Shown here: positions 11,546 through 55,345 of the stretch, in pieces
How positions within the stretch are numbered: the first letter of the stretch is position 1
How the letters are laid out: every line of letters starts with the position of its first letter
Source: Streptomyces sp. NBC_01283
GTDB taxonomy: Bacteria > Actinomycetota > Actinomycetes > Streptomycetales > Streptomycetaceae
NCBI RefSeq assembly: GCF_041435335.1
Contig: NZ_CP108430.1
Coordinates: 5,183,001-5,247,000, forward strand
DNA: 64,000 nucleotides
Reading direction: 5' to 3'
Made by a program: the position numbers and the translations under genes
The notes under the pieces: generated by a model
What the model was told of the DNA's origin: nothing
Database searches by the model: none
What the model saw: only the letters and a program-made list of their open reading frames with translations

Positions 11546-11560
11546 CTGACGGGCAGTCAG
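11546..11560. promoter_or_regulatory. Predicted TetR operator CTGACGGGCAGTCAG
   Basis: A near-perfect 15-bp palindrome 43 bp before the start of the acyl-CoA ligase, placed to control its promoter. It belongs to the repeated CTGACGNNNNGTCAG family seen across the window. Confidence 0.75.
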
Positions 11561-11623
11561 ATCGTGCCGAGAGCGTAAGGCTCACCGCCTTGTCGGTCCA
11601 GAGGTGCGAAGCTAGCCTGCGTT

Positions 11624-11638
11624 CTGACGGGTCATCAG
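11624..11638. promoter_or_regulatory. Predicted TetR operator CTGACGGGTCATCAG
   Basis: Second palindrome of this divergent region, 40 bp before the likely start of the acyl-CoA dehydrogenase at 11679. One position of the right arm deviates (ATCAG for GTCAG). Confidence 0.75.
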
Positions 11639-11678
11639 ATAGTCCGGAGGGGCCGGAGGGATGACCGGAGGGGGCGAC

Positions 11679-12845
11679 GTGGACCTCACCTACACGCAGG
11701 AGGAGGAATCCTTCCGGGCGGGCCTGCGCGAGTGGCTGGCCCGCACCCTCCCCCAACTGCCGGCGCGCCCGGACCCGTTGGACTGGCCGGGGCGCCGCGC
11801 GTACGACATGGGGTGGCAGCGCAGGCTGTACGACGCCGGATACGCGGGCCTGCACTGGCCCGTCGACGCGGGAGGGCGGGGCGCCACCCCCACCCAGCAC
11901 CTCATCTTCCTGGAGGAGACCGAGAAGGCGGGCGCACCCTACGTAGGGGCGAACTTCGTGGGCCTGCTGCACGCGGGCCCCACCATCGCCTCCGAAGGAA
12001 CCCCCGGACAGCGGGCCCGCTGGCTGCCGCCCGTGCTGCGCGGCGACGAGGTGTGGTGCCAGGGCTTCAGCGAACCGGACGCGGGCTCCGACCTCGCGTC
12101 ACTGCGCACGCGCGCGTGGCGCGACGGCGACGACTACGTGGTGAGCGGATCCAAGATCTGGACCTCGCACGCGGAGGTCGCCGACTGGTGCGAGCTCCTC
12201 GTGCGGACGACCCCGGTGAGCGAGGACGTGCCCAAGCACCGCGGCATCACATGGCTCGCGATGCCGATGGACGCACCCGGCATCACGGTCCGCCCGCTGC
12301 GCACGCTCGCGGGCTCCACCGAGTTCGCCGAGATGTTCCTCGACGAGGTGCGGGTCCCGGTCGCCAACCGCGTCGGCGCGGAGAACGACGGCTGGCGCGT
12401 GACCATGGTGACGCTCTCGTACGAGCGGGGCACGGCCTTCGTGGGGGAGGTCGTCGCCTGCCGCCGGGTCCTCGGCGAGCTGGCCCGCGAGGCCCGCAAG
12501 AACGGCCGCTGGGACGACGCGGTGCTGCGCCGCAGGCTCGGCAGGCTGGGCGCGGAGTTCGGGGCGCTGTGGCGGCTCACGCAGTGGAACGTCAGCGAGT
12601 CGCAGCGGGCGGGGACCGGGGTGCCGGGAATCGGCGGGTCCGTCTTCAAGCTCCGCTACTCGCACGCACGCCAGGAGCTGTACGAGGCGGCCGGCGAGGT
12701 ACTCGGGGCGGGCGCCCTCGACCTGGACCACGAGTGGACCCTGGACCGCCTCTCCTCTCTCTCCTACACGATCGCCGCCGGGACCTCGCAGATCCAGCAG
12801 AACATCGTGGCCGAGCGGATACTCGGCCTCCCGAAGGGGCGGTGA
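11679..12845 (+). CDS. Acyl-CoA dehydrogenase, large subunit type
   Basis: 388 residues. The GTG at 11679 has GGAGG 7 nt upstream and gives the family-typical start VDLTYTQEEESFR; the ATG at 11661 is an alternative. It has the full acyl-CoA dehydrogenase fold: a GxxGLHWPxxxGGRGA-like segment, WCQGFSEPDAGSDLASL, VSGSKIWTSHAEVADWC and the FAD-binding C-terminus GTSQIQQNIVAERILGLP. It would introduce an alpha-beta double bond into an acyl-CoA. It overlaps the next, shorter dehydrogenase gene by 4 bp. Paired genes of this type form alpha2beta2 enzymes in actinobacterial steroid side-chain degradation, and I infer the same here. Confidence 0.93.
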   Translation: MDLTYTQEEESFRAGLREWLARTLPQLPARPDPLDWPGRRAYDMGWQRRLYDAGYAGLHWPVDAGGRGATPTQHLIFLEETEKAGAPYVGANFVGLLHAGPTIASEGTPGQRARWLPPVLRGDEVWCQGFSEPDAGSDLASLRTRAWRDGDDYVVSGSKIWTSHAEVADWCELLVRTTPVSEDVPKHRGITWLAMPMDAPGITVRPLRTLAGSTEFAEMFLDEVRVPVANRVGAENDGWRVTMVTLSYERGTAFVGEVVACRRVLGELAREARKNGRWDDAVLRRRLGRLGAEFGALWRLTQWNVSESQRAGTGVPGIGGSVFKLRYSHARQELYEAAGEVLGAGALDLDHEWTLDRLSSLSYTIAAGTSQIQQNIVAERILGLPKGR

Positions 12846-13768
12846 GGGAGCACGTGGACTTCCAACTCACTGAAGATCAGCAGGCGTTGAAGAGCGGAGT
12901 GCGTGAACTGCTGGAGGGGCGCTTCGGCGGAGAAGCCTTACGGGCAGCGGTGGGTCCCGGGGACGCGTCGGGCTCGGAGGTGCCCTCCCTGGACCGGAAC
13001 CTCTGGCGGGAGCTCGGGGACGCCGGGTTCTTCTCGCTGCGGGTGCCGGAGGCGCAGGGCGGGGTCGGCCTCGCGCTTCCGGAGGCCGTGCTTGCCTTCG
13101 AGGAGGCGGGGCGGGTGCTGCTTCCCGGGCCGCTGGTGGCCACGTTCCTCGCCGCACGCGACGTCGCCGGCGCGGCACAGGGCGTGACCGTGGTGACGGC
13201 CCCGTACGGGGGGCTCGTCCCCTGGCTCGACGCGGCGGATGTCGCGCAGGGTGACGTCTCGGGGGCGGTTCCGTTGCGGTCGGTCGACCCGCTGACGCCG
13301 CTGCATCGGGTGTCTGCGTCTACGCCTTCGTCTGCGCCTTCGTCGCGTGAGGGGAGCGAGGGCGGGGCGGAGGCGGATCTCCTGCTCGCCGCCGAGCAGC
13401 TCGGCAGCGCCGCGCGAACCTGTGAGATGGCTGTCCAATACGCCCGGGAACGTACCCAATTCGGCCAGCCCATCGGGGCGTTCCAGGCCGTCAAGCACCT
13501 CTGCGCGCAGATGCTCGTCCGGGCCGAGGTCGCCCGTGTCGCCGTGTATGCCGCGGCCGTCACCGGTGACGTACTGGAGATCGCCGGGGCCAAGCTGCTC
13601 GCCGACGAGGCGGCGGTGAGGAACGCGCGGGACTGCCTCCAGGTGCACGGCGGAATGGGGTTCACCTGGGAGGCCGACGTACATCTGCATCTGAAGCGGG
13701 CCTGGGTGCGTGCCGGCCTCGGGCAGTCCGCGGCCCGGGCGGAGGAGGAGCTCGCGGCGGCACTCTGA
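12842..13768 (+). CDS. Acyl-CoA dehydrogenase, small subunit type
   Basis: 308 residues from a GTG overlapping the previous stop (GTGA). A GTG at 12854 is an alternative start. It is shorter than a normal acyl-CoA dehydrogenase because the middle beta domain is reduced and replaced by a Ser/Pro/Glu-rich linker (about residues 155-180). The N-terminal helical domain (DFQLTEDQQALKSGVRELL) and the C-terminal domain (ARERTQFGQPIGAFQAVKH, CLQVHGGMGFTWEADVHLH) are intact. This is the form of the partner subunit in heterotetrameric dehydrogenases. Leu codon 33 is TTA (12938-12940), a potential bldA-dependent control point. Confidence 0.9.
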   Translation: MREHVDFQLTEDQQALKSGVRELLEGRFGGEALRAAVGPGDASGSEVPSLDRNLWRELGDAGFFSLRVPEAQGGVGLALPEAVLAFEEAGRVLLPGPLVATFLAARDVAGAAQGVTVVTAPYGGLVPWLDAADVAQGDVSGAVPLRSVDPLTPLHRVSASTPSSAPSSREGSEGGAEADLLLAAEQLGSAARTCEMAVQYARERTQFGQPIGAFQAVKHLCAQMLVRAEVARVAVYAAAVTGDVLEIAGAKLLADEAAVRNARDCLQVHGGMGFTWEADVHLHLKRAWVRAGLGQSAARAEEELAAAL

Positions 13769-14239
13769 CGGCTTGGGCGGCTGTGGGGCTCGTGGGGCCA
13801 CGGGATCGTCGTGGGGCCGGTGTGCGGAGAGTGATCGACTTGTGGAGCTCCCGAAGTGGGGGGAGGCTACTGAGCGTCGATATCGGGTTGTGTCCTATGC
13901 GTGACTCGTCACGGCATGGAGTCGGGCTTCGGCTCCGGTACCTTGTGTGAGATGCGAGTGGTTCTGAGGTCGAGCCATGCCGGTGTTGCCACTGAGGCGG
14001 CGCCGGGCCCGGCAATGCGTGCCGTTCGCAGTGCAGGAAGGGGCTGTATGCCCGCCTGTTCGACCCCCCGCAGTGCGCGTCGCACAGTATGCCGCACGCG
14101 TACTCCTTCGCGCTGGAATATGCCTGAAGCGCTTGTTGGGGTGACTGAACGTCAACCATGCTGTCTCTCAAGGGGATCACGTTCCGTGACCCTGTGGAGT
14201 CGCGAGGCGATGTGTCCGCCGGTTCGGATGGTGTGAGCG
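13769..14239. other. Gene-poor 471-bp region with an inverted repeat
   Basis: No reading frame here has convincing codon bias or a ribosome site. The notable element is a perfect inverted repeat CGTGAC-TC-GTCACG at 13900-13913, just after a less GC-rich stretch (tatcgggttgtgtcctatgc). This resembles a promoter with an operator on its downstream edge. It differs from the CTGACG palindromes in arm sequence and spacing. Confidence 0.5.
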
Positions 14240-14731
14240 GTGCAGGTGCTTCAAGTTCAGCTGGAGGTCAGGCCGGACCCGGCCGAGGTGGGGCGGGCCC
14301 GAAGGTGGGCGCGCTCACGGCTCGCCGGTTCCGGGATAGGGGTCGACGAGCCACTGGCCGAGACGCTGATCCTGCTGATCTCGGAGCTGGTCACCAACGC
14401 GGTGGTGCACACGGGCTGTCCGGCCGTGCTGCGCATGCGGCTCCCGGACGTCCCGGAAGTGCCAGAGGAGGCCGCCGATGCCGGGCCGGGCACGGTCAGG
14501 GTCGAGGTGGCCGATGCCAGCGCACGTCCCCCGAAGCAGCGGCACGCGGACGGCGACGCGACCAACGGCCGGGGCCTTGAGCTCGTCGACGGCCTCGCGG
14601 ACCGCTGGGGCTGGCAGACCGAAGGCGCGGGAAAGAGCATCTGGTGCGAGGTGGACCGGTGCGAGCCGGGCGTCGAGGCGGTCGCGTTCGACGGGGCGAC
14701 CTACGAGGACGTCGCGTACGAAGCGGTCTGA
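14240..14731 (+). CDS. HATPase-fold ATP-binding protein (RsbW-like anti-sigma/serine kinase family)
   Basis: 163 residues from a GTG; a second GTG lies 6 bp downstream. It has a GHKL ATPase domain: N box ISELVTNAVVHTG, G1 box VEVADASARPPKQ and G2 box GRGLELVDGLADRWGW. Proteins of this size in Streptomyces are stand-alone anti-sigma or serine-kinase partners of STAS antagonists. A STAS gene lies at 8723-9097, but whether the two work together cannot be told from the sequence. Confidence 0.87.
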   Translation: MQVLQVQLEVRPDPAEVGRARRWARSRLAGSGIGVDEPLAETLILLISELVTNAVVHTGCPAVLRMRLPDVPEVPEEAADAGPGTVRVEVADASARPPKQRHADGDATNGRGLELVDGLADRWGWQTEGAGKSIWCEVDRCEPGVEAVAFDGATYEDVAYEAV

Positions 14732-15044
14732 GCACTGCGTGGCGGTGCTCATGACGGTGCTCATGGCCGCACTCATGGCAGGTCCCTTGGCGGTGCCGGG
14801 CGCCCGCATGCGCCGTCGCGTGCCACGATGCGCGGCCATGCGCGGCCGGAGCATAAGCGGCATAATTCATTAATCACCGGACGGGTGTTGACGTACCGTG
14901 TCCGATTGATCACGCTTGTGTGCAGCGATTCGCCGCGAGGGGACGTCGAGGGACGGTGGTCTGTGACCCGGTCCTCGGCGAGATGTGGGTCGCCGTCGGC
15001 GTCGGTCCCTTCGTGGCCGGAGAGCAGGACCAGTGCGCCGGAGC
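14732..15044. other. Non-coding 313-bp region
   Basis: No supported gene. It contains an A/T-richer patch at about 14853-14920 (cataattcattaatcacc and gtgttgacgtaccgtgtcc) that could hold a promoter. No partner gene follows on the plus strand, so its role is unclear. Confidence 0.4.
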
Positions 15045-15101
15045 CGGATGGCGGCGCGCGCGGCGACGCGCTCGGGGCGGGAGCCGGGCCGCCGCCATCC
15101 G
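15045..15101 (-). terminator. Hairpin terminator behind the cyclase-family gene
   Basis: The arms CGGATGGCGGC (15045-15055) and GCCGCCATCCG (15091-15101) form an 11-bp perfect stem six bases beyond the stop codon of the minus-strand cyclase gene. Confidence 0.6.
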
Positions 15102-15106
15102 AAGGC

Positions 15107-16078
15107 TCACAGCACCGCTACGGGCGCGACGGGTGTCCCCGTACCGCCGATGAACGGTTCGGGCATCGCGGAGAGCAGGAAGCTGTAGCGGGAAACTTCT
15201 GCACAGGCTGTGGACAACTTTTCGAGATTCCAGTTCTGGCCCTGCAGCATCCCCATCTCGACCAGGTCGAGCGCGTGCACGGGCAGCCAGAGGTTCTCGA
15301 TCTCGGGCGGGAAGATCTCGAAGGTGAGCGTGTCGTTGGCGACCGCCGCGACATCGCGAGCGTGGAACCACTCCGGGGTGTGGACCGAGAGGCCGGGGGA
15401 CGGATATCCGTACGCGTGCTTGTCGCCCGCCAGGTAGGTCTGGATCTGGCCGGTGCGTACGAGGACGATGTCGCCGGCGCGGACGGTGATCCCGGCGAAC
15501 TCCGCTGCCTCCGCCAGGTCTTCGGGCGTCACCGCGTGATCGCCGGGCAGCCGGTCCACGCCCTTGGCGCGGGCGACGTCGAGCAGTACGCCGCGCGAGA
15601 CGAGGTGCGGCACCTTGTCGATGCCGCTGAACCGCGCGCCGGTGTGGGCGGTGATGGAGTCGGCGGGGCGGCCGTTGTAGATCTTTCCCGAGTGCGAGGC
15701 GTGGGTGAGCGCGTCCCAGTGGGTGGCTGTCTGGAGGCCCATCGTGACGGCGTCGTCGCTGGTGGCGACCGTGCCGGGGCCGAAGAGCTCCTGGTTGATC
15801 TGCACCATCGTGTGGAGGGGGTTGATCCGGCCGGGTATCAGGCCGGTCTGGACGCCGTCCTCCTTGAGCGGCAGTGCGAGTGGAATGCGCCTGCCGGTGC
15901 GAATGGTGGCGGCGGCCTCGCGTACGACCTCGTCGGTGATGAGGTTGAGGGTGCCGATCTCGTCGTCGGAGCCCCAACGGCCCCAGTTGTTCACGCGTTT
16001 GGCGATGTCGTGGAACTCGGGCGGCAGGGCGGACGCCGGGGTCGAATCGGTGGGACCTGTGGGTGCCGAGTCTGACAT
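15107..16078 (-). CDS. Cyclase-family (kynurenine formamidase-like) metal-dependent hydrolase
   Basis: 323 residues from the ATG at 16078, with GGAGG five bases upstream. The family signature THWDALTHASHSGKIYNG supplies the metal-binding His and Asp residues of the cyclase/formamidase fold. Known members hydrolyse amides, lactones or cyclic ketone derivatives. In a catabolic setting a ring-opening or lactone-hydrolysis role is plausible but inferred. It is divergent from the SDR at 16163, with two operator-like palindromes between the genes, so it is probably part of the predicted TetR regulon. Confidence 0.85.
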   Translation of the reverse strand: MSDSAPTGPTDSTPASALPPEFHDIAKRVNNWGRWGSDDEIGTLNLITDEVVREAAATIRTGRRIPLALPLKEDGVQTGLIPGRINPLHTMVQINQELFGPGTVATSDDAVTMGLQTATHWDALTHASHSGKIYNGRPADSITAHTGARFSGIDKVPHLVSRGVLLDVARAKGVDRLPGDHAVTPEDLAEAAEFAGITVRAGDIVLVRTGQIQTYLAGDKHAYGYPSPGLSVHTPEWFHARDVAAVANDTLTFEIFPPEIENLWLPVHALDLVEMGMLQGQNWNLEKLSTACAEVSRYSFLLSAMPEPFIGGTGTPVAPVAVL

Positions 16079-16108
16079 GGGTCCTCCGCAGGGCTTGTCT
16101 TCCGGTAT

Positions 16109-16123: not shown

Positions 16124-16125
16124 AT

Positions 16126-16140
16126 CTAACGGTCCGTCAG
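16126..16140. promoter_or_regulatory. Predicted TetR operator CTAACGGTCCGTCAG
   Basis: One mismatch in the left arm. It lies 22 bp before the GTG start of the SDR gene. Together with 16109-16123 it could hold two regulator dimers over the divergent promoter. Confidence 0.7.
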
Positions 16141-16162: not shown

Positions 16163-17074
16163 GTGGGGAACTTCTTGGCAGGCAAGGTGGTGGCCGTCAC
16201 CGGCGCCGGACGCGGCATCGGCAGGGCGGTCGCGCTCGCCGCCGCGGCCGAGGGTGCCAGGGTCATCGTGAATGACTACGGCGTCTCCATGGAGGGGGCG
16301 GAACCGACCAGTGAGATAGCCGACGGCGTGGTCAAGGAGATCCAGGCGGCGGGCGGCGAGGCCGTCGCCGTCGCCGACGACATCTCCACCATGGCGGGCG
16401 GGCAGCGGATCGTGGACGTCGCGCTCGCCGAGTACGGGCGCATCGACGGTGTGGTGTGCGTGGCCGGGATCCTGCGCGAACGGATGCTCTTCAACATGTC
16501 CGAGGAGGAGTGGGACCCGGTGGTCGCCACCCACCTCAAGGGCACGTTCACCGTCTTCAGGGCCGCTTCGGCGGTCATGCGGAAGCAGGGGACGGGCACA
16601 CTGATCGGCTTCACCAGCGGCAACCACCAGGGGTCCGTCGCGCAGGCCAACTACAGCGCCGCCAAGGGCGGGATCATCTCGCTGGTGCGGAGCGCCGCGC
16701 TCGGCCTGAACAAGTACGGGGTGACGGCGAACGCGGTGGCGCCCGTCGCGCGCACGCGCATGTCCGCCAATGTGCCCATGGAGCTGAAGGAGATCGGGGA
16801 GCCGGAGGACGTGGCCGCGCTGGTCACGTATCTGCTGAGCGAGCGGGCCCGGGAGGAGAAGATCACCGGGCAGGTCTATACGGTCGCGGGCCCGAAGATC
16901 GCCGTCTGGGCACAGCCGCGTGAGCTGCGGGCCGGGTATGTCGAGGGCGGCTGGACCCCGGAGAAGATCGCCGACTTCCTGCCGGGGACGGTGGGGGTCG
17001 ACCCGATGCCGATGCTGGCCCAGCTGGAGGCGATGGCGAAGGCCGCCGCCGCCAAAGACCGGCCGAACGCGTAG
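16163..17074 (+). CDS. Short-chain dehydrogenase (3-hydroxyacyl-CoA / 17-beta-HSD type)
   Basis: 303 residues from a GTG. The Rossmann motif VTGAGRGIGRAVA (about residues 12-24), CVAGILRERML, catalytic-site FTSGNH and NYSAAKGGI (Tyr and Lys of YxxxK) are all present. The long C-terminal tail (GPKIAVWAQPRELRAG...) resembles the dehydrogenase part of peroxisomal-type multifunctional enzymes and actinobacterial Hsd4A proteins, which oxidise 3-hydroxyacyl-CoAs of steroid side chains. The downstream acyl-CoA dehydrogenase begins 8 bp after its stop codon, so they are probably co-transcribed. Confidence 0.9.
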   Translation: MGNFLAGKVVAVTGAGRGIGRAVALAAAAEGARVIVNDYGVSMEGAEPTSEIADGVVKEIQAAGGEAVAVADDISTMAGGQRIVDVALAEYGRIDGVVCVAGILRERMLFNMSEEEWDPVVATHLKGTFTVFRAASAVMRKQGTGTLIGFTSGNHQGSVAQANYSAAKGGIISLVRSAALGLNKYGVTANAVAPVARTRMSANVPMELKEIGEPEDVAALVTYLLSERAREEKITGQVYTVAGPKIAVWAQPRELRAGYVEGGWTPEKIADFLPGTVGVDPMPMLAQLEAMAKAAAAKDRPNA

Positions 17075-17082
17075 GCCGGGCG

Positions 17083-18372
17083 GTGGAGTTCGGATTCGGC
17101 CCGGAGGACGAGGAGTTCCGCGCGGAGGCCCGCGCGTGGCTCACCGAACACCTGACGGGGGTGTTCGCCGGGGCGGCGGGGCGGGGTGGCCCCGGGAGTG
17201 AGCACGAGGGGGCGGAGGAAAGGCGGGCCTGGGACCGGGAGTTGGGGAGGGGTGGGTGGATTGGGCTTGGGTGGGGTGCGGGTGCGGGTGCGGGTGCGGG
17301 TGCTGGTGCAGGGGCCGGTGCAGGTGCAGGTGTAGGTGCAGGTGCTGGGGTTTTGGGGGTGTATGGGAATCGGCTGGCCTCGTTGACCCAGCAAGTCGTC
17401 TGGGCCGAGGAGTACGCGCGCGTGCGGGCTCCCGGGCGCTATGGGCACATCGGCGAGAACCTGCTGGCCCCGACCCTCCTCGCTTACGGCACGCAGGAGC
17501 AGCAGGACGAGTTCCTGCCGCCCATCGCGCGCGGGGAGGCCCTGTGGTGCCAGGGGTACAGCGAGCCGGGCGCCGGGTCGGACCTGGCGGGGCTGCGGAC
17601 GGTGGCGGTGCGGGACGGCGACGTGTACCGCGTCACCGGGCAGAAGATCTGGACCTCGCTCGCCCACGAGGCGGACTGGTGCTTCGTCCTCGCGCGGACG
17701 GAGGCGGGGTCCACCGGCCACCGGGGGATCTCGTTCCTGCTGGTCCCGATGGATCAGCCCGGACGCGTCGAGGTGCGTCCCATACGGCAGTTGACGGGTA
17801 CGAGCGAGTTCAACGAAGTCTTCTTCGACGGTGCGGTCGCGCGCGCCGCGCACGTGGTCGGCGGTGCCGGAAACGGGTGGCGCGTCGCCATGGGCCTCCT
17901 CGGCTTCGAACGGGGCGTGTCCACGCTCGTCCAGCAGATCGGGTTCGCCGAGGAGCTGGGGAGCGTCGTACGGGAGGCCGTCGACAGCGGGGCCGTCGAC
18001 GATCCCGTGCTGCGGGACCGCCTCGTGCGGCAGTGGGCGGAGCTACGGGTCATGCGGTGGAACGCCCTGCGTACGTTGGGGAGTTCGGGCGGCTCCCGGG
18101 CCGACTCCGGGGTCGGCGCGGGCGCTCCCAGTGTGGCCAAGCTGCTCTGGGGCGGGTGGCATCAGCGGCTCGGCGAGCTGGCGATGGCGGTACGGGGGGC
18201 TGCGGGGGCGGTCGGTCCAGGGGACTGGAGCGAGAGCGAACCGTACGAACTCGATGCCCTGCAAAGGCTCTTCCTCTTCACGCGGGCCGACACCATCTAC
18301 GGCGGCTCGGACGAGATTCAGCGCAACATCATCGCCGAGCGCGTGCTCGGCCTGCCGAGGGAGGCGCGATGA
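17083..18372 (+). CDS. Acyl-CoA dehydrogenase with an internal Gly-Ala repeat
   Basis: 429 residues from a GTG. It has the typical dehydrogenase motifs EFRAEARAWLTEHL, WCQGYSEPGAGSDLAGL, VTGQKIWTSLAHEADWC, FNEVFFDGA and a C-terminal GSDEIQRNIIAERVLGLP for FAD binding. Residues about 63-90 are a run of Gly-Ala dipeptides ending GVLGVYGNR. They sit where family members have a GxGWPxxYGGRG loop near the substrate and FAD entrance. The insert arises from a hexanucleotide microsatellite. The gene overlaps the downstream alcohol dehydrogenase by 4 bp (ATGA). Whether the enzyme is active with this loop is uncertain. Confidence 0.9.
   Translation: MEFGFGPEDEEFRAEARAWLTEHLTGVFAGAAGRGGPGSEHEGAEERRAWDRELGRGGWIGLGWGAGAGAGAGAGAGAGAGAGVGAGAGVLGVYGNRLASLTQQVVWAEEYARVRAPGRYGHIGENLLAPTLLAYGTQEQQDEFLPPIARGEALWCQGYSEPGAGSDLAGLRTVAVRDGDVYRVTGQKIWTSLAHEADWCFVLARTEAGSTGHRGISFLLVPMDQPGRVEVRPIRQLTGTSEFNEVFFDGAVARAAHVVGGAGNGWRVAMGLLGFERGVSTLVQQIGFAEELGSVVREAVDSGAVDDPVLRDRLVRQWAELRVMRWNALRTLGSSGGSRADSGVGAGAPSVAKLLWGGWHQRLGELAMAVRGAAGAVGPGDWSESEPYELDALQRLFLFTRADTIYGGSDEIQRNIIAERVLGLPREAR
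17271..17352. repeat. Hexanucleotide microsatellite inside a coding region
   Basis: About 13 units of GGTGCG/GGTGCA/GGTGCT, encoding Gly-Ala with occasional Gly-Val. Length changes in multiples of six keep the frame. It replaces a conserved loop of the acyl-CoA dehydrogenase rather than being added at a terminus. Confidence 0.9.
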
Positions 18373-20792: not shown

Positions 20793-20863
20793 GGCCCGAT
20801 TCTAGCTAATGCTGTCCCTCCGGCCACTCGTTCGGAGGCGGCCGGATCCGGATTCTGGGTGCC

Positions 20864-22862: not shown

Positions 22863-22877
22863 CTGACGGGTCGTCAG
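22863..22877. promoter_or_regulatory. Predicted TetR operator CTGACGGGTCGTCAG
   Basis: It has perfect five-base outer arms and is followed by AT. It lies 6 bp before the first possible start of the flavin reductase gene. The identical 15-mer occurs at 51960-51974. Confidence 0.8.
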
Positions 22878-26161: not shown

Positions 26162-26176
26162 CTGACGCATAGTCAG
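26162..26176. promoter_or_regulatory. Predicted TetR operator CTGACGCATAGTCAG
   Basis: Perfect CTGAC/GTCAG arms, 33 bp before the start of the NDP-forming CoA ligase and followed by AT. Confidence 0.75.
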
Positions 26177-26185: not shown

Positions 26186-26200
26186 CTGACGCTGTGTCAG
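26186..26200. promoter_or_regulatory. Predicted TetR operator CTGACGCTGTGTCAG
   Basis: Second site, centre-to-centre 24 bp from the first. The paired arrangement recurs at several promoters of the set. Confidence 0.75.
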
Positions 26201-27818: not shown

Positions 27819-27833
27819 CTGACGTACCGTCAG
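27819..27833. promoter_or_regulatory. Predicted TetR operator CTGACGTACCGTCAG
   Basis: Perfect five-base arms, upstream of the DUF35 gene. The rest of the 328-bp divergent region (27573-27900) shows no gene. Confidence 0.75.
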
Positions 27834-27841: not shown

Positions 27842-27856
27842 GTGACGTGCTGTCAG
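27842..27856. promoter_or_regulatory. Predicted TetR operator GTGACGTGCTGTCAG
   Basis: One mismatch (first base). Centre-to-centre 23 bp from the preceding site, 44 bp before the DUF35 GTG start. Confidence 0.7.
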
Positions 27857-31493: not shown

Positions 31494-31508
31494 CTGACGG
31501 TACATCAG
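31494..31508. promoter_or_regulatory. Predicted TetR operator CTGACGGTACATCAG
   Basis: It lies immediately before the start of the minus-strand thiolase-like gene and is flanked by AT on both sides (AATCTGAC...CAGATA). Confidence 0.75.
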
Positions 31509-31577: not shown

Positions 31578-31592
31578 ATGACGGCCCGTCAG
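31578..31592. promoter_or_regulatory. Predicted TetR operator ATGACGGCCCGTCAG
   Basis: One outer mismatch. It lies 69 bp before the acyl-CoA dehydrogenase start on the plus side of the divergent region. Confidence 0.72.
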
Positions 31593-33488: not shown

Positions 33489-34136
33489 CTACTTCGTCGG
33501 CTTCTTGCCTGTTACGCCCAGATGCACCAACAGTGCGAGGTTCGGCTTCAGTTCGGTCTGCTTGACGCCCCAGGTCTGGAAGCCCCGCTGGTGCGAGGCG
33601 ACCGCGGCGAGCATCGCCACGAGGGAGCCCGCCATCGCCGCGGGGTTGACGTCCTTGTCGACCTTCCCCTTGGACTGGAGCTCCTTGACCGTGTCCGTAA
33701 GGGAGTTGTTGACCGAGTTCAGGATCTTCATGCGGAGCTTGTAGAAGCGCTTGTCGCCCTCCGCGGCGCCCAGATCGACGACCCGGAGGATCGCGTCGTT
33801 CTTGCGCCAGAAGTCGAGGAAGCCGTCGACCAGCTCCTGTGCGGTCTGCCACCCCGCCTTGCCGACCCATGAACGGCCGTCGAGGAGCTGGGTCAACTCG
33901 GCTCCCTCGGCCGCCATTTGCTCGGCGATCTCGAGGACGGCGCCCTCGACGTCGGGGAAGTACTGATAGAAGGTCGCGGGTGAAGTCCCCGCCTTCCGGG
34001 CGACGTCGATGACTTTGACGTCCCGGTAGGGCGAGGAGCTGAGCATCTCGCTGAGGCAGTCGAGCAGCTTCTGACGCGTCGCCTGACCGCGCCGACCGGC
34101 CACGCGGCCGTCGACGGTACGTACCTGTCCTGTCAT
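33489..34136 (-). CDS. TetR-family regulator, candidate master regulator of the CTGACG regulon
   Basis: 215 residues. The N-terminal helix-turn-helix domain spans about residues 16-65 (RGQATRQKLLDCLSEMLSSS, DVKVIDVARKAGTSPATFYQYF). The C-terminal ligand domain is helical (FLDFWRKNDAILRVVDLGAAEGDKRFYKLRM). It is the only TetR gene in the window and lies among the catabolic genes. A CTGACGG/GACAG palindrome covers its own start codon (34130-34144), which suggests autorepression. If the true start lies slightly downstream, the operator would be in the leader. The likely inducer is an acyl-CoA intermediate, as for KstR-type regulators (inference). Confidence 0.9.
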   Translation of the reverse strand: MTGQVRTVDGRVAGRRGQATRQKLLDCLSEMLSSSPYRDVKVIDVARKAGTSPATFYQYFPDVEGAVLEIAEQMAAEGAELTQLLDGRSWVGKAGWQTAQELVDGFLDFWRKNDAILRVVDLGAAEGDKRFYKLRMKILNSVNNSLTDTVKELQSKGKVDKDVNPAAMAGSLVAMLAAVASHQRGFQTWGVKQTELKPNLALLVHLGVTGKKPTK

Positions 34137-34144
34137 GCCGTCAG
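34130..34144. promoter_or_regulatory. Predicted autoregulatory operator over the TetR start codon
   Basis: Read on the minus strand: CTGACGGCATGACAG. The seven-base left arm is perfect; the right arm has one mismatch. The ATG lies inside the palindrome. Confidence 0.6.
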
Positions 34145-39450: not shown

Positions 39451-39510
39451 GGGCAAGACACCTCCGCCACCGGCGAGGCCCCAGGGCTTCGCCATACGTC
39501 GTCCCGACTG

Positions 39511-39525
39511 CTGACAGCGCGTCAG
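39511..39525. promoter_or_regulatory. Predicted TetR operator CTGACAGCGCGTCAG
   Basis: Perfect outer arms, 60 bp before the thiolase-like start on the minus side. Confidence 0.75.
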
Positions 39526-39537: not shown

Positions 39538-39552
39538 CTGACGGATAGTCAG
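39538..39552. promoter_or_regulatory. Predicted TetR operator CTGACGGATAGTCAG
   Basis: Perfect outer arms, 23 bp before the FadD3-like start. The pair is spaced 27 bp centre to centre across the divergent promoter. Confidence 0.78.
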
Positions 39553-48779: not shown

Positions 48780-51728
48780 TCAGACCGCGGCGACCGGCTT
48801 GAGGAGGTGCTGTACCTGAGCCGCTTCGGGCGCGCCCGCCGCCTCGTGGATGGTGAGGGCCTCGCGCCAGCAGGCCCGTGCGCGGTCGACCTGCCCGAGG
48901 TTGTCCAGAGCCCTGCCCAGGATCGTCAGGACGTTCGCGCGCATCCAGTCGCCGCCGACGCAGCCGGTGCTCAGGGCCTGCTCCGCGTGCTGAGCCGCCT
49001 GTGCCGGGCGGAGAGCCGCGAAGTGGACCTGGGCGATGCGGTAGTGGGTCGCTCCCTGCCACAGGCGCTGGCGGTTCACCTCGAAGATCCGCCGGGCGTC
49101 CTCAAGCTGGTCGAGGGCTTCGGGGTGGCGGCCCGCCTGGCTGAGGGCGAGCCCGAGGGTGTACTTGGCGTTGGCCAGCCGGAAGGTGACGCCGAGGTCG
49201 CCGTAGATGGCCATTCCCTGCCGGGCCAGATCGATGGACTTCGCAGTGCGACCCATCGCTAGGAGGGCCCGCGAGAGGTTGCACAGCGCGCTGGCCTCGC
49301 TGTGGCGGTTGCCGTCGCCCCGGAAGACGGCGATCGCTTCGAGGAGGTATGTCTCGCTCGCGGACGGGTTGTTGATGCAGTTGTTGACGATGCCCTGTTC
49401 GTTGAGGGCGTTCCCGCTGGTCCAGGGGTCCTTGGATTCCTCGGCGAGCGCGGCGGCGTACTCGAGTTCCTCGGCGGCGTCGTCGAAGCGCCCGAACTTG
49501 TTGAGCACCTGCGCCAGGCTGACCCGGGCCCGCCCCTCGGCGCGTGCGTTCCCTTCGGCGGCCGCTGCCTCGCGCGCCATGCGGGTGGCGACCTCGTACC
49601 GGTGCGAACTCGCGCCGGACTCGGCCAGGTCCTTCGCGGCGAGCAGCAGGTCCACCGCGCGCTGCAGACTGCCGGGCCTCAGCGACTGCTGGATGCAGGC
49701 CAGGATGCAGGAGGCCTCCGCGTGCAGCCAGTCGAACGCCTTGGCGCCGTCGCTGAACTCCAGGCCGACCTGCGGGGTCGTCTCCAGGTGGTCCGCCGTC
49801 CGGTCGCCGGGCCGTTCTATCGCGTACACCCGTGCCGCCGTGGCCAGATAGAAGTCCAGCAGCCGTGACGTCGCCGCCTCCCGCTCGTCCGCCGGGAGTT
49901 CCCGCTCGGCGCACGCACGCGCGTAGAGCCGGACCAGGTCGTGGTAGCGGTAGCGGCCCGGGGCCGCCGATTCGACCAGGGACGTGTCGACCAGGGATTC
50001 GAGCAGGTCCTCCGCCTCCTCGGCCGGCAGGTCGAGCACCGCGGCGGCAGCGGCGAGCGAGAGGTCCGGGCCGTCCGCCAGGCCCAGCAGGCGGAACGCG
50101 CGGGCCTGCGCGGGCTCCAGCTGGCCGTAGCCCAGTTCGAACGTCGCCTTGACCGCCAGGTCGCCCGCCTGGAGTTCGTCCAGGCGGCGCCGTTCGTCCG
50201 CCAGCTTCGCGGCGAGGGTCGAGACCGTCCACGTACGACGGGCCGCCAGGCGGGAGGCGGCGATGCGGATCGCCAGGGGGAGGAAGCCGCAGGCCGCGAC
50301 CACGTCGAGCGCGGCCTTGCGCTCCGACGTCACCCTCTCCTCGCCGACGATCCGGGTGAAGAGGAGGAGGGCCTCCTCGGGGGACATGACGTCCAGGTCG
50401 ACGAGGTGCGCCCCGGCGAGGTCCACCATGCGGATGCGGCTGGTCACGAGTGCCGCGCAGCCCTCCATGCCGGGGAGCAGCGGACGTACCTGGGCCGCGT
50501 CGCGCGCGTTGTCCAGGACCACCAGCACCCTGCGGCCGTCGAGCACCGAGCGGTACAGCGCCGCCCGCTCCTCCAGGGAGTCGGGGATCGCCGAGTCCGC
50601 CGTTCCCAGGGCGCGGAGGAAGGCGCCCAGGACGGTTTCCGGTTCGGCCGCTCGCGCGCCCGCGCCCTGGAGGTCCACGTAGAGCTGTCCGTCGGGGAAG
50701 TGCGTCCGGGCCACGTGTGCCACGTGGACTGCGAGGGTCGTCTTGCCCACGCCGCCGATTCCCGCGAGCGCGGAGACCGCCATCACGCGGCCCTCGGCCG
50801 CCGACAGGATCTCGCTCAGTTCCGACACGAAGGACGCGCGGCCCGTGAAGTCCGGGACGGTAGCGGGCAGTTGGGCGGGCCGCACCACCGCTGCGGCCGG
50901 TTCCGGGGTCGACGCCGGGGCTCCCGCGAGCGCCGGGTCCGCCTGGAGGATGCGCTGCTGGAGTTCCTTCAGACCCGGGCGCGGGTCCACTCCCAGTTCG
51001 TCGGCGAGGAGGCGGCGGGTGTCCGCGTAGACGGCGAGGGCCTCCGCCTGGCGTCCGCTGCGGTACAGCGCCAGCATGAGCAGTTCGCGCAGGCGTTCGC
51101 GGAGGGGGTGCGCCGCCGTGAGGGCCGTGAGCTCCGAGACGGCTTCGGCGTGGCAGCCGGCCTCCAGGTCCATGTCCAGGCGGGATTCCAGGAGCTGGAG
51201 GCGCCACTCCTCAAGGCGGGTGCGTTCCGTTTCCGCGTACGGCCCGGGGACGTTCGCCAGGGGTTCGCCGTCCCAGAGGCCCAGCGCCTTGTTGGCCAGG
51301 GAGCGCGCCTGGCAGAGGTCGGCCACGCCGCGCGCCTTCTCCGCCTCAGCCCACAGGTCCTCGGCGAGCGCCAGGTCGAGCGCGCCGTCGGCCACCGCGA
51401 TCGCGTACCCGCCCGACTCGCTGACCAGGACGCCGGCGGGCAGTACCTTGCGCAGCCGCGAGGCGTACGTGCGGACCGCGGCCAGCGCCTGCGAGGGCGG
51501 CTCCTCGCCCCACAGGGCGTCGATCAGTTCGTGCGCCGTCGCCGTGCGGCCGTCACGCAGCAGGAGCGCCGCGAGCAGCGCGCGCTGCTGCGGAGAGCCC
51601 ATGGAGAGCTGCTCGGCGCCGTGCCATGCGCGTACGGGGCCGAGCACGCTGAAGTGCGGTCTCAGTTCCTCGGGGGCGTTCCCCGGGGCCGGACGCCGTT
51701 GGTCCGGTACTCGCGGTACACCGTCCAT
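48780..51728 (-). CDS. afsR: SARP-family global regulator AfsR
   Basis: 982 residues from the ATG at 51728, with GGGGGAG upstream. The start at 51764 is rejected because MDGVPRVPDQR matches the known N-terminus. Domain order: OmpR-type winged helix (about 25-115), bacterial transcriptional activation domain (to about 270), NB-ARC ATPase with P-loop GIGGVGKTT (about 321-329) and LVVLDNARDAAQVRPLLPG, then a TPR C-terminus. AfsR is phosphorylated by AfsK and other kinases, binds the afsS promoter and stimulates secondary metabolism. The length is close to the ~993 residues of the S. coelicolor protein. Confidence 0.96.
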   Translation of the reverse strand: MDGVPRVPDQRRPAPGNAPEELRPHFSVLGPVRAWHGAEQLSMGSPQQRALLAALLLRDGRTATAHELIDALWGEEPPSQALAAVRTYASRLRKVLPAGVLVSESGGYAIAVADGALDLALAEDLWAEAEKARGVADLCQARSLANKALGLWDGEPLANVPGPYAETERTRLEEWRLQLLESRLDMDLEAGCHAEAVSELTALTAAHPLRERLRELLMLALYRSGRQAEALAVYADTRRLLADELGVDPRPGLKELQQRILQADPALAGAPASTPEPAAAVVRPAQLPATVPDFTGRASFVSELSEILSAAEGRVMAVSALAGIGGVGKTTLAVHVAHVARTHFPDGQLYVDLQGAGARAAEPETVLGAFLRALGTADSAIPDSLEERAALYRSVLDGRRVLVVLDNARDAAQVRPLLPGMEGCAALVTSRIRMVDLAGAHLVDLDVMSPEEALLLFTRIVGEERVTSERKAALDVVAACGFLPLAIRIAASRLAARRTWTVSTLAAKLADERRRLDELQAGDLAVKATFELGYGQLEPAQARAFRLLGLADGPDLSLAAAAAVLDLPAEEAEDLLESLVDTSLVESAAPGRYRYHDLVRLYARACAERELPADEREAATSRLLDFYLATAARVYAIERPGDRTADHLETTPQVGLEFSDGAKAFDWLHAEASCILACIQQSLRPGSLQRAVDLLLAAKDLAESGASSHRYEVATRMAREAAAAEGNARAEGRARVSLAQVLNKFGRFDDAAEELEYAAALAEESKDPWTSGNALNEQGIVNNCINNPSASETYLLEAIAVFRGDGNRHSEASALCNLSRALLAMGRTAKSIDLARQGMAIYGDLGVTFRLANAKYTLGLALSQAGRHPEALDQLEDARRIFEVNRQRLWQGATHYRIAQVHFAALRPAQAAQHAEQALSTGCVGGDWMRANVLTILGRALDNLGQVDRARACWREALTIHEAAGAPEAAQVQHLLKPVAAV

Positions 51729-51959
51729 CGCTCCCCCTGCTGCCCTGACGTACCCGGCCGTCACCGTGCCTGGTCATGCGCCGCGGGCCTGCCCTGCCCG
51801 CGATTGTCGCTCTTTGTCTGTTTCCGTTCTCCGCCTGGCTCTTGCTCCCCGCCAGTTTGCCTTGTTCATGGCGGATGCGTCAGCTCCGGGAGACGGCTCT
51901 CACAGGGTCCACGCACACAGGCTTCCGCGACAGTCCGCGTACCGATGCCCGTCGAGGAG

Positions 51960-51974
51960 CTGACGGGTCGTCAG
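51960..51974. promoter_or_regulatory. Predicted TetR operator CTGACGGGTCGTCAG
   Basis: Identical to the site at 22863, 21 bp before the amidohydrolase start and followed by ATC. It is the first site on the far side of afsR. Confidence 0.8.
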
Positions 51975-51995
51975 ATCGGCGCTACCGTGGACCAC

Positions 51996-53240
51996 ATGGA
52001 GACCACTGAGACCTTGCCGACGTTCCCGAGGATCATCTCGGTGGACGACCACACCGTTGAGCCCGCCCATGTCTGGCGGGACCGGCTGCCGTCGAAGTAC
52101 CAGGACAGCGGGCCGCGCGTCGTCCGGGCACCCCTGAAGGAAATGACGTTTCTGGGCGGGAAGTTCGCACCCATCATGGGGGCGAAGGGGGATGAAGGCC
52201 CCATAGGTGACTGGTGGATCTACGAGGACCTGCATCGGCCCCTCACCCGTCTCGACACCTCCGTCGGTTACGACCGGGACGAGATCAAGCTTGAGGTCAT
52301 CACGTACGAGCAGATGCGCCCGGGGTCCTTCAGCGTGCCCGACCGCCTCGCCGACATGGACGTCAACCACGTCCAGTCCGCCCTCTGCTTCCCCACCTTC
52401 CCCCGCTTCTGCGGGCAGACGTTCACCGAGGCCAAGGACCGCGAGCTCGGTCTGCTCAGCGTGCGCGCCTACAACGACTGGATGGTGGACGAGTGGTGCG
52501 GCCCGGAGGCGCGCGGCCGGCTCATCCCCCTCACTCTCATTCCGCTCTGGGATGCCGAACTCGCCGCCGCCGAGGTCCGCCGCAACGCCGCCCGAGGCGT
52601 GCGCGCCGTCGCTTTCTCCGAGATACCGCCCCACCTGGGCCTGCCCTCCATCCACACCGACGAGTGGGACCCCTTCCTGCGGGCCTGCGACGAGACCGGC
52701 ACCGTCATCGCCATGCACATCGGGTCGAGCAGCAAGATGCCGAGCACGTCGGCGGACGCGCCGCCCGCCGTGGGATCCACGATCACCTTCGCCAACTGCT
52801 GTTTCTCGATGGTCGACTGGCTGATGAGCGGCAAGTTCGAGCGCTTCCCGAACCTCAAGATCATGTATGCCGAGGGGCAGATCGGGTGGATCCCGTACAT
52901 CCTGGAGCGCGCGGACGTGGTCTGGGAGGAGAACCGCGGCTGGGGCGGGGTCGCCGACAAGGTGCACCGCCCGCCGTCCGAGCTCTTCACCGAGCACGTG
53001 TACGGCTGCTTCTTCGACGACGCCTTCGGGCTGCGGAACCTCGACGCGATCGGCGTCGGGAACGTCCTCTACGAGACCGACTATCCGCACTCCGACTCCA
53101 CCTGGCCCAAGTCCCGGGAGGTCGGTGAGTCCCAGATGGGGCACCTGGCGCCCGACGTGGTCGACCGGATCGTGCGGGGCAACGCCATCGACCTGCTCGG
53201 TCTGACTGGCGACGGGCTGTGGGCGGGGCCCGGGGCGTAA
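51996..53240 (+). CDS. Amidohydrolase-2 family (ACMSD-like TIM-barrel) protein
   Basis: 414 residues from the ATG at 51996; a GTG at 51987 is an alternative. Members act as metal-dependent hydrolases or decarboxylases. Seen here: RIISVDDHTVEP in place of the usual HxH, PLTLIPLWDAELAAAEVRRN, AVAFSEIPPHLGLPSIHTDE, VIAMHIGSS (His), LKIMYAEGQIGWIPYILERA and NVLYETDYPHSDSTWP (Asp). Related proteins are frequent in actinobacterial steroid and lipid catabolic loci. With the strong operator just upstream it belongs to the predicted regulon; the reaction is unknown. Confidence 0.9.
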   Translation: METTETLPTFPRIISVDDHTVEPAHVWRDRLPSKYQDSGPRVVRAPLKEMTFLGGKFAPIMGAKGDEGPIGDWWIYEDLHRPLTRLDTSVGYDRDEIKLEVITYEQMRPGSFSVPDRLADMDVNHVQSALCFPTFPRFCGQTFTEAKDRELGLLSVRAYNDWMVDEWCGPEARGRLIPLTLIPLWDAELAAAEVRRNAARGVRAVAFSEIPPHLGLPSIHTDEWDPFLRACDETGTVIAMHIGSSSKMPSTSADAPPAVGSTITFANCCFSMVDWLMSGKFERFPNLKIMYAEGQIGWIPYILERADVVWEENRGWGGVADKVHRPPSELFTEHVYGCFFDDAFGLRNLDAIGVGNVLYETDYPHSDSTWPKSREVGESQMGHLAPDVVDRIVRGNAIDLLGLTGDGLWAGPGA

Positions 53241-53368
53241 GGGAAGGCGGGGCGAGGGCGGGGCACCTGCGAGGCCGCGGGTGCCCCGCTTCCGGGTGCC
53301 TGGCCGGTGGCCCAACGGCGGCCGGCTGAGGGCCCGGCACCTTCGGGCAGTCGCCGCCGACCTCTTGC

Positions 53369-53383
53369 CTGACGATCCGTCAG
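53369..53383. promoter_or_regulatory. Predicted TetR operator CTGACGATCCGTCAG
   Basis: Perfect outer arms, upstream of the first LLM gene. The spacing to the next site is 41 bp centre to centre. Confidence 0.75.
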
Positions 53384-53409: not shown

Positions 53410-53424
53410 GTGACGAACCGTCAG
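53410..53424. promoter_or_regulatory. Predicted TetR operator GTGACGAACCGTCAG
   Basis: One outer mismatch, 24 bp before the LLM ATG. Confidence 0.72.
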
Positions 53425-53448
53425 GTCTAGGTGAGGGGCTGGGTTCCC

Positions 53449-54408
53449 ATGGCTGCCAACGCGCTGGCGCACATCTTCCCGCAGGGGCGACTGGTCTACG
53501 GGATGCAGCTCCCGATCCAGTCGCAGAGCGTCATGTACGCGGAGGCGTGGGAGGCGGACGCCACCGTGGACGACCTCGCCGAGATCGCCCGCACCGCCGA
53601 CCGGAGCGGCTTCGCGTACATCGCTAGCTGCGACCACGTGGCCATCCCGCGGCGGCTCGCCGACACCATGAGCACGGTCTGGTACGACCCGGTGGCCACG
53701 CTCTCCTTCCTCGCCGGAATCACCGAGAACGTACGGCTGATGAGCCATGTCGCCGTCGTCGGGCTCCGGCATCCGCTGGTCGGCGCCAAGCAGTACGCCA
53801 CCCTGGACCGGCTCAGCGGCGGACGGCTGATCCTGGGGGTCGGGGCGGGGCACGTACAGGAGGAATTCGACGCCGTCGGCGCCGACTTCGAGCGGCGCGG
53901 GCCCGTGCTCGACGAGACCGTCGACGCACTCAGGGCTGCCCTCGGCCCCGAGGAGTACCCCGAACACCACGGAGAGCACTACGACTTCGGCGGGCTCGGC
54001 CAGCAGCCGCGCCCCGCGCAGTCCCACGTGCCCATCTGGGTGGGCGGTTCCTCGCCCGCCGCCGTCCGCAGGGCCGCCGTACGCGGCGACGGGTGGCTGC
54101 CGCAGGGCGACCCGCGCGACAAGCTGCCCGCGCAGATCGCCAGGCTCAAGCGGCTCAGGGAAGAGGCGGGGGTCGCGGAGCCCGCCGTCGTGGGGGCGAT
54201 CGCCGAGCCCCTCTATGTGGGGGAGCCGACGTGGTCGGTGGGGCGGCGCACCCTGAGCGGGAAGCCGGACGCCCTGGCGGAGTCGCTGCGCGCCTACGGG
54301 GCGATGGGCGTGCAGCAGATCCAGGTGCGGTTCCGCAGCCGGGGCCGCACCGAACTCACGGATCAGATGGCCGCGTTCGCCGCCGAGGTCGCCCCGCACC
54401 TCAACTGA
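53449..54408 (+). CDS. LLM-class (luciferase-like) F420-dependent oxidoreductase
   Basis: 319 residues from the ATG at 53449; a GTG at 53431 is an alternative. Luciferase-like TIM barrel: LAEIARTADRSGFAYIASCD, LAGITENVRLMSHVAVVGLR, TLDRLSGGRLILGVGAGHVQ and VPIWVGGSSPAAVRRAAVRG. Most actinobacterial proteins of this type use F420 rather than FMN. It would reduce or oxidise a pathway intermediate, as Rv3520c-like LLM proteins are thought to do in the mycobacterial cholesterol regulon. It lies 64 bp upstream of the SDR gene, with which it is probably co-transcribed. Confidence 0.9.
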   Translation: MAANALAHIFPQGRLVYGMQLPIQSQSVMYAEAWEADATVDDLAEIARTADRSGFAYIASCDHVAIPRRLADTMSTVWYDPVATLSFLAGITENVRLMSHVAVVGLRHPLVGAKQYATLDRLSGGRLILGVGAGHVQEEFDAVGADFERRGPVLDETVDALRAALGPEEYPEHHGEHYDFGGLGQQPRPAQSHVPIWVGGSSPAAVRRAAVRGDGWLPQGDPRDKLPAQIARLKRLREEAGVAEPAVVGAIAEPLYVGEPTWSVGRRTLSGKPDALAESLRAYGAMGVQQIQVRFRSRGRTELTDQMAAFAAEVAPHLN

Positions 54409-54472
54409 CCCCGGAAGTACGTCAACTTACAAACCCCGCACCGCAACTGACAGCTCGACTGAGGAGACTCGT

Positions 54473-55258
54473 ATGGGCAAGCTGGACGGCCGCGTCGTCA
54501 TCGTCACCGGTGCGGCGCGCGGGCAGGGCGAGCAGGAGGCGCGGCTCTTCGCCGCCGAGGGGGCGCGGGTCGTCATCGCCGATGTGCTCGACGACCAGGG
54601 CGAGGCCCTCGCCAAGGAACTCGGCGCCGACGTGGCCAAGTACGTGCACCTGGACGTCGGCCAGGAGGCCGGCTGGGTCGCGGCGGTCGGCGCCGCCAAG
54701 GATGCCTTCGGGAAGATCGACGGACTCGTCAACAATGCCGGGATCCTGCGCTTCAACGAACTCGTCAGCACCCCGCTCGAAGAGTTCCAGCAGATCATCC
54801 AGGTCAACCAGATCGGCTGCTTCCTCGGCATCCGCAACGTCGCGCCCGAGATCGGGGCCGCCGGCGGCGGGACCATCGTGAACACCGCCTCGTACACGGC
54901 GATGACGGGCATGGCGTACGTCGGCGCGTACGCCGCGACCAAGCACGCCATCCTCGGGCTCACCCGCGTCGCCGCGCTGGAGCTCGCCGCCAGGAACATC
55001 CGCGTCAACGCCGTCTGCCCGGGGGCCGTCGACACCCCGATGACCAATCCCGCGCAGCTGGACCCGAACGCCGACCCCACCGAGGCGGGGGAGGCCGTCG
55101 CCGAGCTCTACAAGAAGCTCGTGCCGCTCGGACGGATCGGCAGGCCCGAGGAGGTGGCCGCGCTGGCGCTCTTCCTGACCGGGGGCGACTCGGCGTACAT
55201 CACCGGGCAGCCGTTCGTCATCGACGGCGGGTGGCTCGCGGGCGTCAGCATTGTCTGA
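54473..55258 (+). CDS. Short-chain dehydrogenase, 3-alpha/20-beta-hydroxysteroid dehydrogenase-like
   Basis: 261 residues from an ATG preceded by GAGGAGA. Rossmann motif [20 protein letters not shown], acidic Asp of VIADVL for NAD preference, [24 protein letters not shown], catalytic Ser in [10 protein letters not shown] and [13 protein letters not shown] (YxxxK), then [10 protein letters not shown]. Several segments recall the Streptomyces 3-alpha,20-beta-hydroxysteroid dehydrogenase and mycobacterial FabG3. A hydroxyl/keto interconversion on a ring substrate is inferred. Its stop codon lies within the next operator (55255-55269). Confidence 0.9.
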
Positions 55259-55269
55259 CGGAACGTCAG
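55255..55269. promoter_or_regulatory. Predicted TetR operator CTGACGGAACGTCAG
   Basis: Perfect seven-base arm on the left; it overlaps the SDR stop codon and lies about 110 bp before the second LLM gene. Confidence 0.75.
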
Positions 55270-55330
55270 TAGTCGTGCCCCCGGGTATTGACGGTCCTCG
55301 CGGCCGGTGGAACAGTCGACGCATCACGAT

Positions 55331-55345
55331 CTGACGGTTCGTCAG
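55331..55345. promoter_or_regulatory. Predicted TetR operator CTGACGGTTCGTCAG
   Basis: Almost fully palindromic, flanked by AT and AA, 35 bp before the TTG start of the LLM gene. Confidence 0.8.

Follow-up and report, generated by a model that had tools for sequence, protein, structure and literature searches.

A recurring palindrome in Streptomyces as the probable operator of a conserved TetR protein linked to acyl-CoA catabolism genes

A short palindrome that recurs between catabolic genes raises the question of which protein recognises it and which genes that protein controls. This question arises in a 64,000-nucleotide stretch of Streptomyces sp. NBC_01283 (positions 5,183,001 to 5,247,000 of contig NZ_CP108430.1; the window, hereafter), where an earlier note had listed 19 full or near copies of a 15-bp palindrome over about 44 kb and had proposed a single regulator, the TetR-type protein encoded at 33489-34136 on the minus strand. 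Judging from comparisons of sequence, we consider it likely that this palindrome, CTGACG-N3-CGTCAG, is the operator of the linked TetR protein, which would repress genes of acyl-coenzyme A (acyl-CoA) catabolism and would be released by a ligand.

The sequence CTGACGNNNNGTCAG is found exact on at least one strand at 11 of the 19 listed positions (11546, 22863, 26162, 26186, 27819, 39511, 39538, 51960, 53369, 55255 and 55331) and with one mismatch at seven others (11624, 16126, 27842, 31494, 31578, 34130 and 53410); the remaining one, 16109, is a half-site only, with a score of 8.7 in our position weight matrix (PWM). Alignment of the sites in both orientations gave the core CTGACG-N3-CGTCAG, which is a better way to write the motif, with A or T favoured directly outside the arms; AT flanks are frequent, as had been described. 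The matrix has 19 columns and was trained on 17 of the 19 sites, excluding 34130 and 16109; it is circular for the sites of its own window, whereas genome-wide and cross-genome counts are free of this circularity. At a score of at least 16 it finds 16 matches in the window, against a mean of 0.15 over 40 Markov sequences. When up to two mismatches are allowed there are 57 matches in the window against 35.9 expected, and the loosest matches are therefore mostly noise. The genome itself (9.59 Mb) holds 30 distinct exact sites, 11 of them inside the 44-kb block (binomial p 9e-19), and 16 copies of the full palindrome CTGACGNNNCGTCAG, six of them in the window (p 7e-11), while the reversed palindrome, our control, has 0 copies. 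The motif is thus far from equally frequent elsewhere, and the block is the densest part of the regulon in this genome; the regulon proposed for these 44 kb is, however, genome-wide and family-wide rather than confined to them.

The palindrome and the TetR gene occur together across genomes. A TetR match at E 1e-30 was found in all 150 Streptomycetaceae genomes (one match in 147, two in 3), and a clear ortholog (E 1e-88 or better) in 149, the match in G074 (76% complete) reaching only 2e-35. The full palindrome is present in 149 of these 150 genomes, with 0-127 copies per genome, as compared with 0-4 for the reversed control and 0-3 for a 16-base version with the wrong spacing. In the class as a whole, 43 of 246 genomes carry the TetR ortholog. 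Outside Streptomycetaceae, the mean number of palindromes is 38.3 (median 9) in the 21 genomes with TetR and 0.73 in the 203 that lack it (Mann-Whitney 8e-12), and at least five palindromes are found in 15 of the 21 but in only 2 of the 203 (p 8e-17). The contrast holds within family f14, where genomes with TetR have 14, 14, 13, 14, 7, 10 and 6 palindromes and those without it 0, 0, 10, 0 and 1 (p 0.008), and within family f18 (p 0.006); G289, an f14 genome that is 68% complete, has 10 palindromes and no detected TetR, and the single TetR carrier of family f4 has no palindrome. Three small genomes of the genus (G113, G098 and G068, 5.8-6.1 Mb) have kept TetR together with 0-1 perfect palindromes.

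The protein encoded at 33489-34136 (-) is a predicted TetR repressor, over the cut-offs of both PF00440 (TetR_N) and the C-domain PF19352. Its predicted structure is all-helical (predicted local distance difference test score, pLDDT, 91.6), and the TetR_N helix-turn-helix and the helical C-terminal domain of the TetR family are both present; a model from the single sequence was poor (pLDDT 64) and was left unused. On named contigs, all of Streptomyces, the protein is 92-98% identical (80 kept of 575 candidates). When the window TetR was aligned with 36 of 40 fetched loci (L144, L145, L154 and L159 were excluded), recognition-helix residues T51, S52 and A54-F60 were invariant in all 37 sequences. 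The gene also has a site of its own: the copy at 34130..34144 (one mismatch; PWM 12.8) overlaps the TetR ATG, as had been reported, and is a weak, putatively autoregulatory operator. This self-site lies at -8 in all 92 close loci with a located start (110 were fetched), as well as in all 20 divergent loci of Streptomycetaceae. Of 40 divergent loci altogether, 38 have a site scoring at least 11.7 near the TetR start (14% of random windows reach 11.5); the two exceptions are the loci of G170 and G179, genomes without palindromes. The TetR loci outside Streptomycetaceae have differing and mostly stronger upstream sites, with 15 of 20 reaching a score of 14 as against 11% of random 660-bp windows. 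The near-start site is found again, at positions that differ, in families f1, f12, f14 and f18, and at lower scores in family f13, where three TetR loci have a self-site score of only 11.7.

Conservation extends to the promoters. Six other genomes of the genus have 93 perfect palindromes between them, 41 of which are no more than 50 kb from the TetR gene. Four of these six, together with the genome of the window, form the five-genome Streptomyces set used below. Of its 110 strong sites, 89 are close to a called gene start and 17 are deep inside genes, with 4 placed otherwise; where a start is 8-130 bp from the site (93 site-gene pairs), the median distance is 48 bp. Among the 84 perfect palindromes of the set 57 are intergenic, of which 51 lie in divergent or tandem gaps (25 of the 57 in divergent ones). 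Three promoters keep their sites in all five genomes, namely that of an acyl-CoA synthetase (two sites, 24 bp apart), that of the luciferase-like monooxygenase (LLM) gene at 55411 (two sites), and the one in the intergenic region of afsR and an Amidohydro_2 gene. The predicted core of the regulon in all five is the acyl-CoA synthetase, the LLM oxidoreductase and a PtmU3-like amidohydrolase that shares its intergenic region with afsR. Site-to-site spacing, considered as a sign of cooperativity, gave nothing besides the orthologous 24-bp pair (5 pairs among the 110 strong sites).

The co-occurrence in 246 genomes of the class, the TetR self-sites in several families, the invariant recognition helix and the targets conserved in five Streptomyces all fit the single linked regulator that had been proposed, and this TetR is very probably the cognate regulator of the palindrome. 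A TetR dimer would very probably bind the palindrome and would block promoters by covering the -10/start region. This fits a -10-like TAnnnT that starts 4 bases ahead of the operator in 13 of the 93 site-gene pairs, against a mean of 0.5 per offset. The protein would also weakly repress its own gene through the site over its start codon, and it would be released from the DNA by a ligand, for which a CoA-thioester intermediate of the pathway is the likeliest candidate. What the sequences show is the motif, where it lies, its conservation and its co-occurrence with the TetR gene; the binding and repression, the ligand and the substrate are inferred. The controlled genes would provide CoA activation, acyl-CoA dehydrogenation, hydration, an Ltp/ChsH2-type aldolase pair, flavin- and LLM-type oxidoreductases and a PtmU3-related PF04909 enzyme.

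In the 44-kb block all sites are called operators as predictions from sequence, and gene calls beyond the Pfam-checked genes are coarse GC-frame calls, several first-choice open reading frames (ORFs) having been wrong (for example 51900-53315, -). The site at 11546..11560 (exact; PWM 26.0) would serve the acyl-CoA ligase at 9916-11502 (-), and that at 11624..11638 (one mismatch; 25.3) the acyl-CoA dehydrogenase at 11661-12845 (+). In the following 3 kb or so (12900-16100) no Pfam family was found in the three ORFs tested (12877-13665, 13662-14180 and 14828-16075). The site at 16126..16140 (one mismatch; 26.0), which the half-site at 16109 adjoins, is the candidate operator of the short-chain dehydrogenase/reductase (SDR) and acyl-CoA dehydrogenase genes at 16163-18372 (+), and the perfect palindrome at 22863..22877 that of a flavin reductase gene (22222-22857, -) whose ortholog in G009 also has a site. 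Two exact sites, the promoter-proximal one at 26162..26176 and a second, 24 bp from it, at 26186..26200, form the conserved pair of the ADP-forming acyl-CoA synthetase; its gene runs from 23903 to about 26128 (-), where alignment places the start formerly put at 26218. A perfect palindrome at 27819..27833 (24.8), with a weak second site 23 bp away at 27842..27856 (one mismatch; 12.1), lies between a monooxygenase gene of the flavin-containing monooxygenase (FMO) type at 26388-27785 (-) and an ORF ending at 28374 (+), which is ChsH2-like by Pfam, with oligonucleotide/oligosaccharide-binding (OB) and zinc-ribbon parts.

Further along, the sites at 31494..31508 (one mismatch; 27.4) and 31578..31592 (one mismatch; 19.7), both conserved in G148, are predicted to control a thiolase-like/lipid-transfer gene at 30284-31489 (-) and an acyl-CoA dehydrogenase ORF ending at 32864 (+), respectively. 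The Ltp-type thiolase-like gene at 38299-39495 (-) has its putative operator at 39511..39525 (exact on the minus strand; 18.5), and the FadD3-family CoA ligase gene at 39576-41180 (+; NCBIfam) has one at 39538..39552 (exact; 26.2). The perfect palindrome at 51960..51974 lies between afsR at 48780-51764 (-) and the gene at 51996-53240 (+), which encodes an Amidohydro_2 enzyme. The perfect palindrome at 53369..53383 is assigned to the LLM gene at 53431-54408, whose ortholog in G148 has a site, together with the SDR gene at 54473-55258, and the site at 53410..53424 (one mismatch; 23.4) would be the second operator of the same LLM promoter. Upstream of the LLM gene at 55411-56508, the conserved pair consists of perfect palindromes at 55255..55269, which indeed overlaps the SDR stop codon, and at 55331..55345 (29.5).

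The Amidohydro_2 (PF04909) enzyme at 51996-53240 (+), a predicted core target, has DitZ (200 bits) and PtmU3 (128 bits) as its nearest relatives of solved structure. Aligned with both, it keeps the metal-site motifs DxH, HIG, E (followed by G; A in PtmU3) and DYPH, the set of metal ligands being taken from AibH2 (PMC7782822). PtmU3 is a diiron beta-hydroxylase of diterpenoid biosynthesis that accepts CoA-ligated substrates (PMC7782822). The two are homologs of one controlled enzyme only. The thiolase-like protein of 38299-39495 is closest to the solved lipid-transfer protein 6ok1 (336 bits), and the ChsH2-like protein is a likely further target. Since these three kinds of protein come together, the reading we prefer is that acids with a blocked beta-carbon would undergo beta-hydroxylation and then aldol-type cleavage, and the controlled genes as a whole suggest catabolism of beta-branched or polycyclic (terpenoid-like) carboxylates.

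Outside the 44 kb the genome holds 19 exact sites, of which 12 are near a called gene start, 4 are inside genes and 3 score below 16. Seven of the 12 precede genes of the same kinds as those of the window (acyl-CoA dehydrogenases, MaoC, enoyl-CoA hydratase, ChsH2-like/thiolase, PNPOx/isochorismatase and a second Amidohydro_2), and the remaining five are upstream of MreB/Mbl, glutaminase, PorA-like and ATP-binding cassette (ABC) genes. The MreB/Mbl gene has its site 61 bp upstream (6024374), and none of the four other genomes has an ortholog with a site. The same site with an ABC gene is present near both chromosome ends (55974 and 9369050), and these copies are probably terminal inverted repeats.

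Both afsR and an afsK-like kinase gene lie inside the 44-kb block, and one predicted operator is in the afsR intergenic region. The product of 48780-51764 (-) is AfsR, a global Streptomyces antibiotic regulatory protein (SARP) regulator (1437 bits to solved AfsR, PDB 8jke/8k60). The operator-like site in the gap that it shares with the Amidohydro_2 gene (window 48780-53240) is kept in 5 of 5 Streptomyces, and afsR is a possible target. The kinase of 34451-36820 carries propeller domains of the pyrroloquinoline quinone (PQQ) type, an architecture that fits AfsK. Judged by its TetR family and by its neighbour afsK, the TetR gene beside it would be the counterpart of SCO4421 of S. coelicolor, which has been described as a TetR gene close to afsK (PMC3878966). 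The SCO4421 promoter is active in spores and silent in vegetative hyphae, and expression is lower in a whiA mutant (PMC3878966). Operator, regulon and ligand are not given in the excerpt of PMC3878966, whereas an operator and a target list are proposed here. Searches of the open-licence literature with the motif letters, SCO4421, PF19352 and the topic gave one paper that names SCO4421 and no description of the operator among the matches listed, which agrees with its having been called previously unlisted.

KstR (Rv3574) of mycobacteria has a palindromic operator both at its own promoter and upstream of further lipid-metabolism genes (PMC1995591), and the system proposed here resembles it as a TetR repressor with such an arrangement. 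The KstR core TnnAACnnGTTnnA (PMC1995591) differs, however, from CTGACG-N3-CGTCAG, as the earlier note had maintained. The predicted TetR model has the fold of EthR of Mycobacterium tuberculosis at 18% identity, but a shared fold does not show shared function; as regards the EthR/ethA pair, the FMO gene at 26388-27785 is a likely target here but does not adjoin the TetR gene.

High copy numbers are found in the distant family f13, whose five genomes (4.3-5.5 Mb) have 109, 113, 119, 135 and 218 perfect palindromes. In G161 the first 100 of 135 sites are randomly spaced (coefficient of variation, CV, 0.99; Kolmogorov-Smirnov p 0.43), as compared with the clustered sites of the genome of the window (CV 1.65). 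The TetR ortholog of G161 is 118 kb from dnaA (at 1.788 Mb), and no site enrichment near dnaA was apparent in those first 100 positions. A dense stretch of G161 (3.18-3.52 Mb, 23 sites) has 8 sites near gene starts, 7 deep in genes and 8 elsewhere, and this mixed placement means that it is no plain operator cluster. Of the 148 distinct sites classified in G161 and G183, 81 are in genes and 3 at the edges of loci; the other 64 are intergenic, with 44 in convergent, 15 in tandem and 5 in divergent gaps. In the five Streptomyces, divergent gaps hold 25 of 57 intergenic sites (difference p 5e-6). Of 30 G161 sites, 10 are kept in place in G183 (96 of 109 G183 sites, in 90 loci, were examined), and single sites turn over. 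With a 90% identical backbone, random 6+6 positions stay identical in 40%, so that individual f13 sites are not specially conserved. In 6 of the 10 shared sites the arms are kept and the centre differs; one of these (L178) aligns at only 74% and may be a paralogous place. The f13 sites L186, L192 and L195 lie exactly 83 bp before DUF222 family genes. The f13 TetR has a conserved recognition helix and a reduced effector domain, two of these proteins having PF19352 scores of 50 and 81 bits as compared with 243 for the window TetR. Four Streptomycetaceae with 77-127 copies also have mixed site placement (30 sites examined).

SlmA is a TetR-type nucleoid occlusion factor with dispersed palindromic sites, and by analogy we offer the tentative suggestion, which we hold possible but doubtful, that the f13 ortholog turned into a chromosome-wide binding protein with SlmA/Noc-like logic, whereas its Streptomyces counterpart would repress catabolic genes from about 10-20 operators, most of them at promoters. 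The window TetR scores 33 bits for SlmA against a cut-off of 120 bits, and SlmA is not among the best 50 fold matches listed, which excludes nothing.

Three other explanations of the palindrome may be weighed against a TetR operator. It might be bound by another transcription factor always inherited together with TetR; co-occurrence alone cannot name the partner, and an AraC-type regulator (19758-20792) is encoded in the same block. We consider this unlikely, as the near-start site of TetR moves from position to position between families, and as the intergenic region between this divergent AraC/DJ-1 regulator gene and a major facilitator superfamily (MFS) transporter gene (window 19758-22189) has no site with a PWM score of at least 8. 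Because this gap is without an operator-like site, the pair is probably outside the regulon. The arms could also form a hairpin with a 6-bp stem and a 3-base loop, such as a terminator, and in f13 the 44 of 64 intergenic copies that lie between convergent genes (29 of 40 in G183, 15 of 24 in G161) often contain their stop codons; 14 f13 sites hold the stops of both genes, and all 10 proteins of five checked pairs have a Pfam family. Any CTGA-N7-TCAG carries stops, however, and those outside the motif likewise favour convergent gaps (9 of 18; p 0.17 for the difference), so that much of the f13 bias would come from the stop codons in the motif and is not claimed. For Streptomyces the hairpin was rejected on the gap placement, the start distances and the rarity of the reversed palindrome, an equally good hairpin (0-4 per genome), and overall it is very improbable. 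That a mobile or repeated element spread the palindrome would suit the high copy numbers of f13 and of a few Streptomycetaceae, but no shared flank was seen by eye around 30 copies in G161 or 30 in four high-count genomes, and copies preceding DUF222 genes number 3 in 30 G161 loci and 0 of 100 counted in G183 loci; we give this explanation hardly any credence.

Several observations nevertheless weigh against the TetR operator. Of the 84 perfect palindromes in the five Streptomyces, 27 lie inside called ORFs, although some of these ORFs are probably over-long, and f13 palindromes are not promoter-placed. The Streptomycetaceae self-site is weak (PWM 11.9-14.5), and its right arm is coding sequence (MTGQ), which would be expected to stay conserved in any case, so that its conservation may be partly coding. 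Among genomes, G170 and G179, whose homologs are distant (44 and 42% identity), show neither motif nor self-site; G203 has an ortholog and 1 palindrome only; G291 has 5 palindromes and no detected ortholog; and G113, a genus member, has kept TetR but has 0 perfect palindromes. Finally, deletion of SCO4421 in S. coelicolor gave no detected phenotype (PMC3878966), growth on a matching substrate being unmentioned in the excerpt of that paper.

The proposed operator pairs a TetR protein that is widely conserved in Streptomycetaceae (149 of 150 genomes) with a predicted operator and target list, no described target of a SCO4421-type TetR having been found in the open-licence literature among the matches listed. 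A direct test thereby becomes possible in the SCO4421 deletion strain of S. coelicolor that already exists (PMC3878966). The proposal also places a predicted operator in the shared intergenic region of afsR, the global antibiotic regulator, beside the gene of a PtmU3-like enzyme, and the expansion in family f13 provides a natural example of what seems to be the change of an operator into a dispersed chromosomal site.

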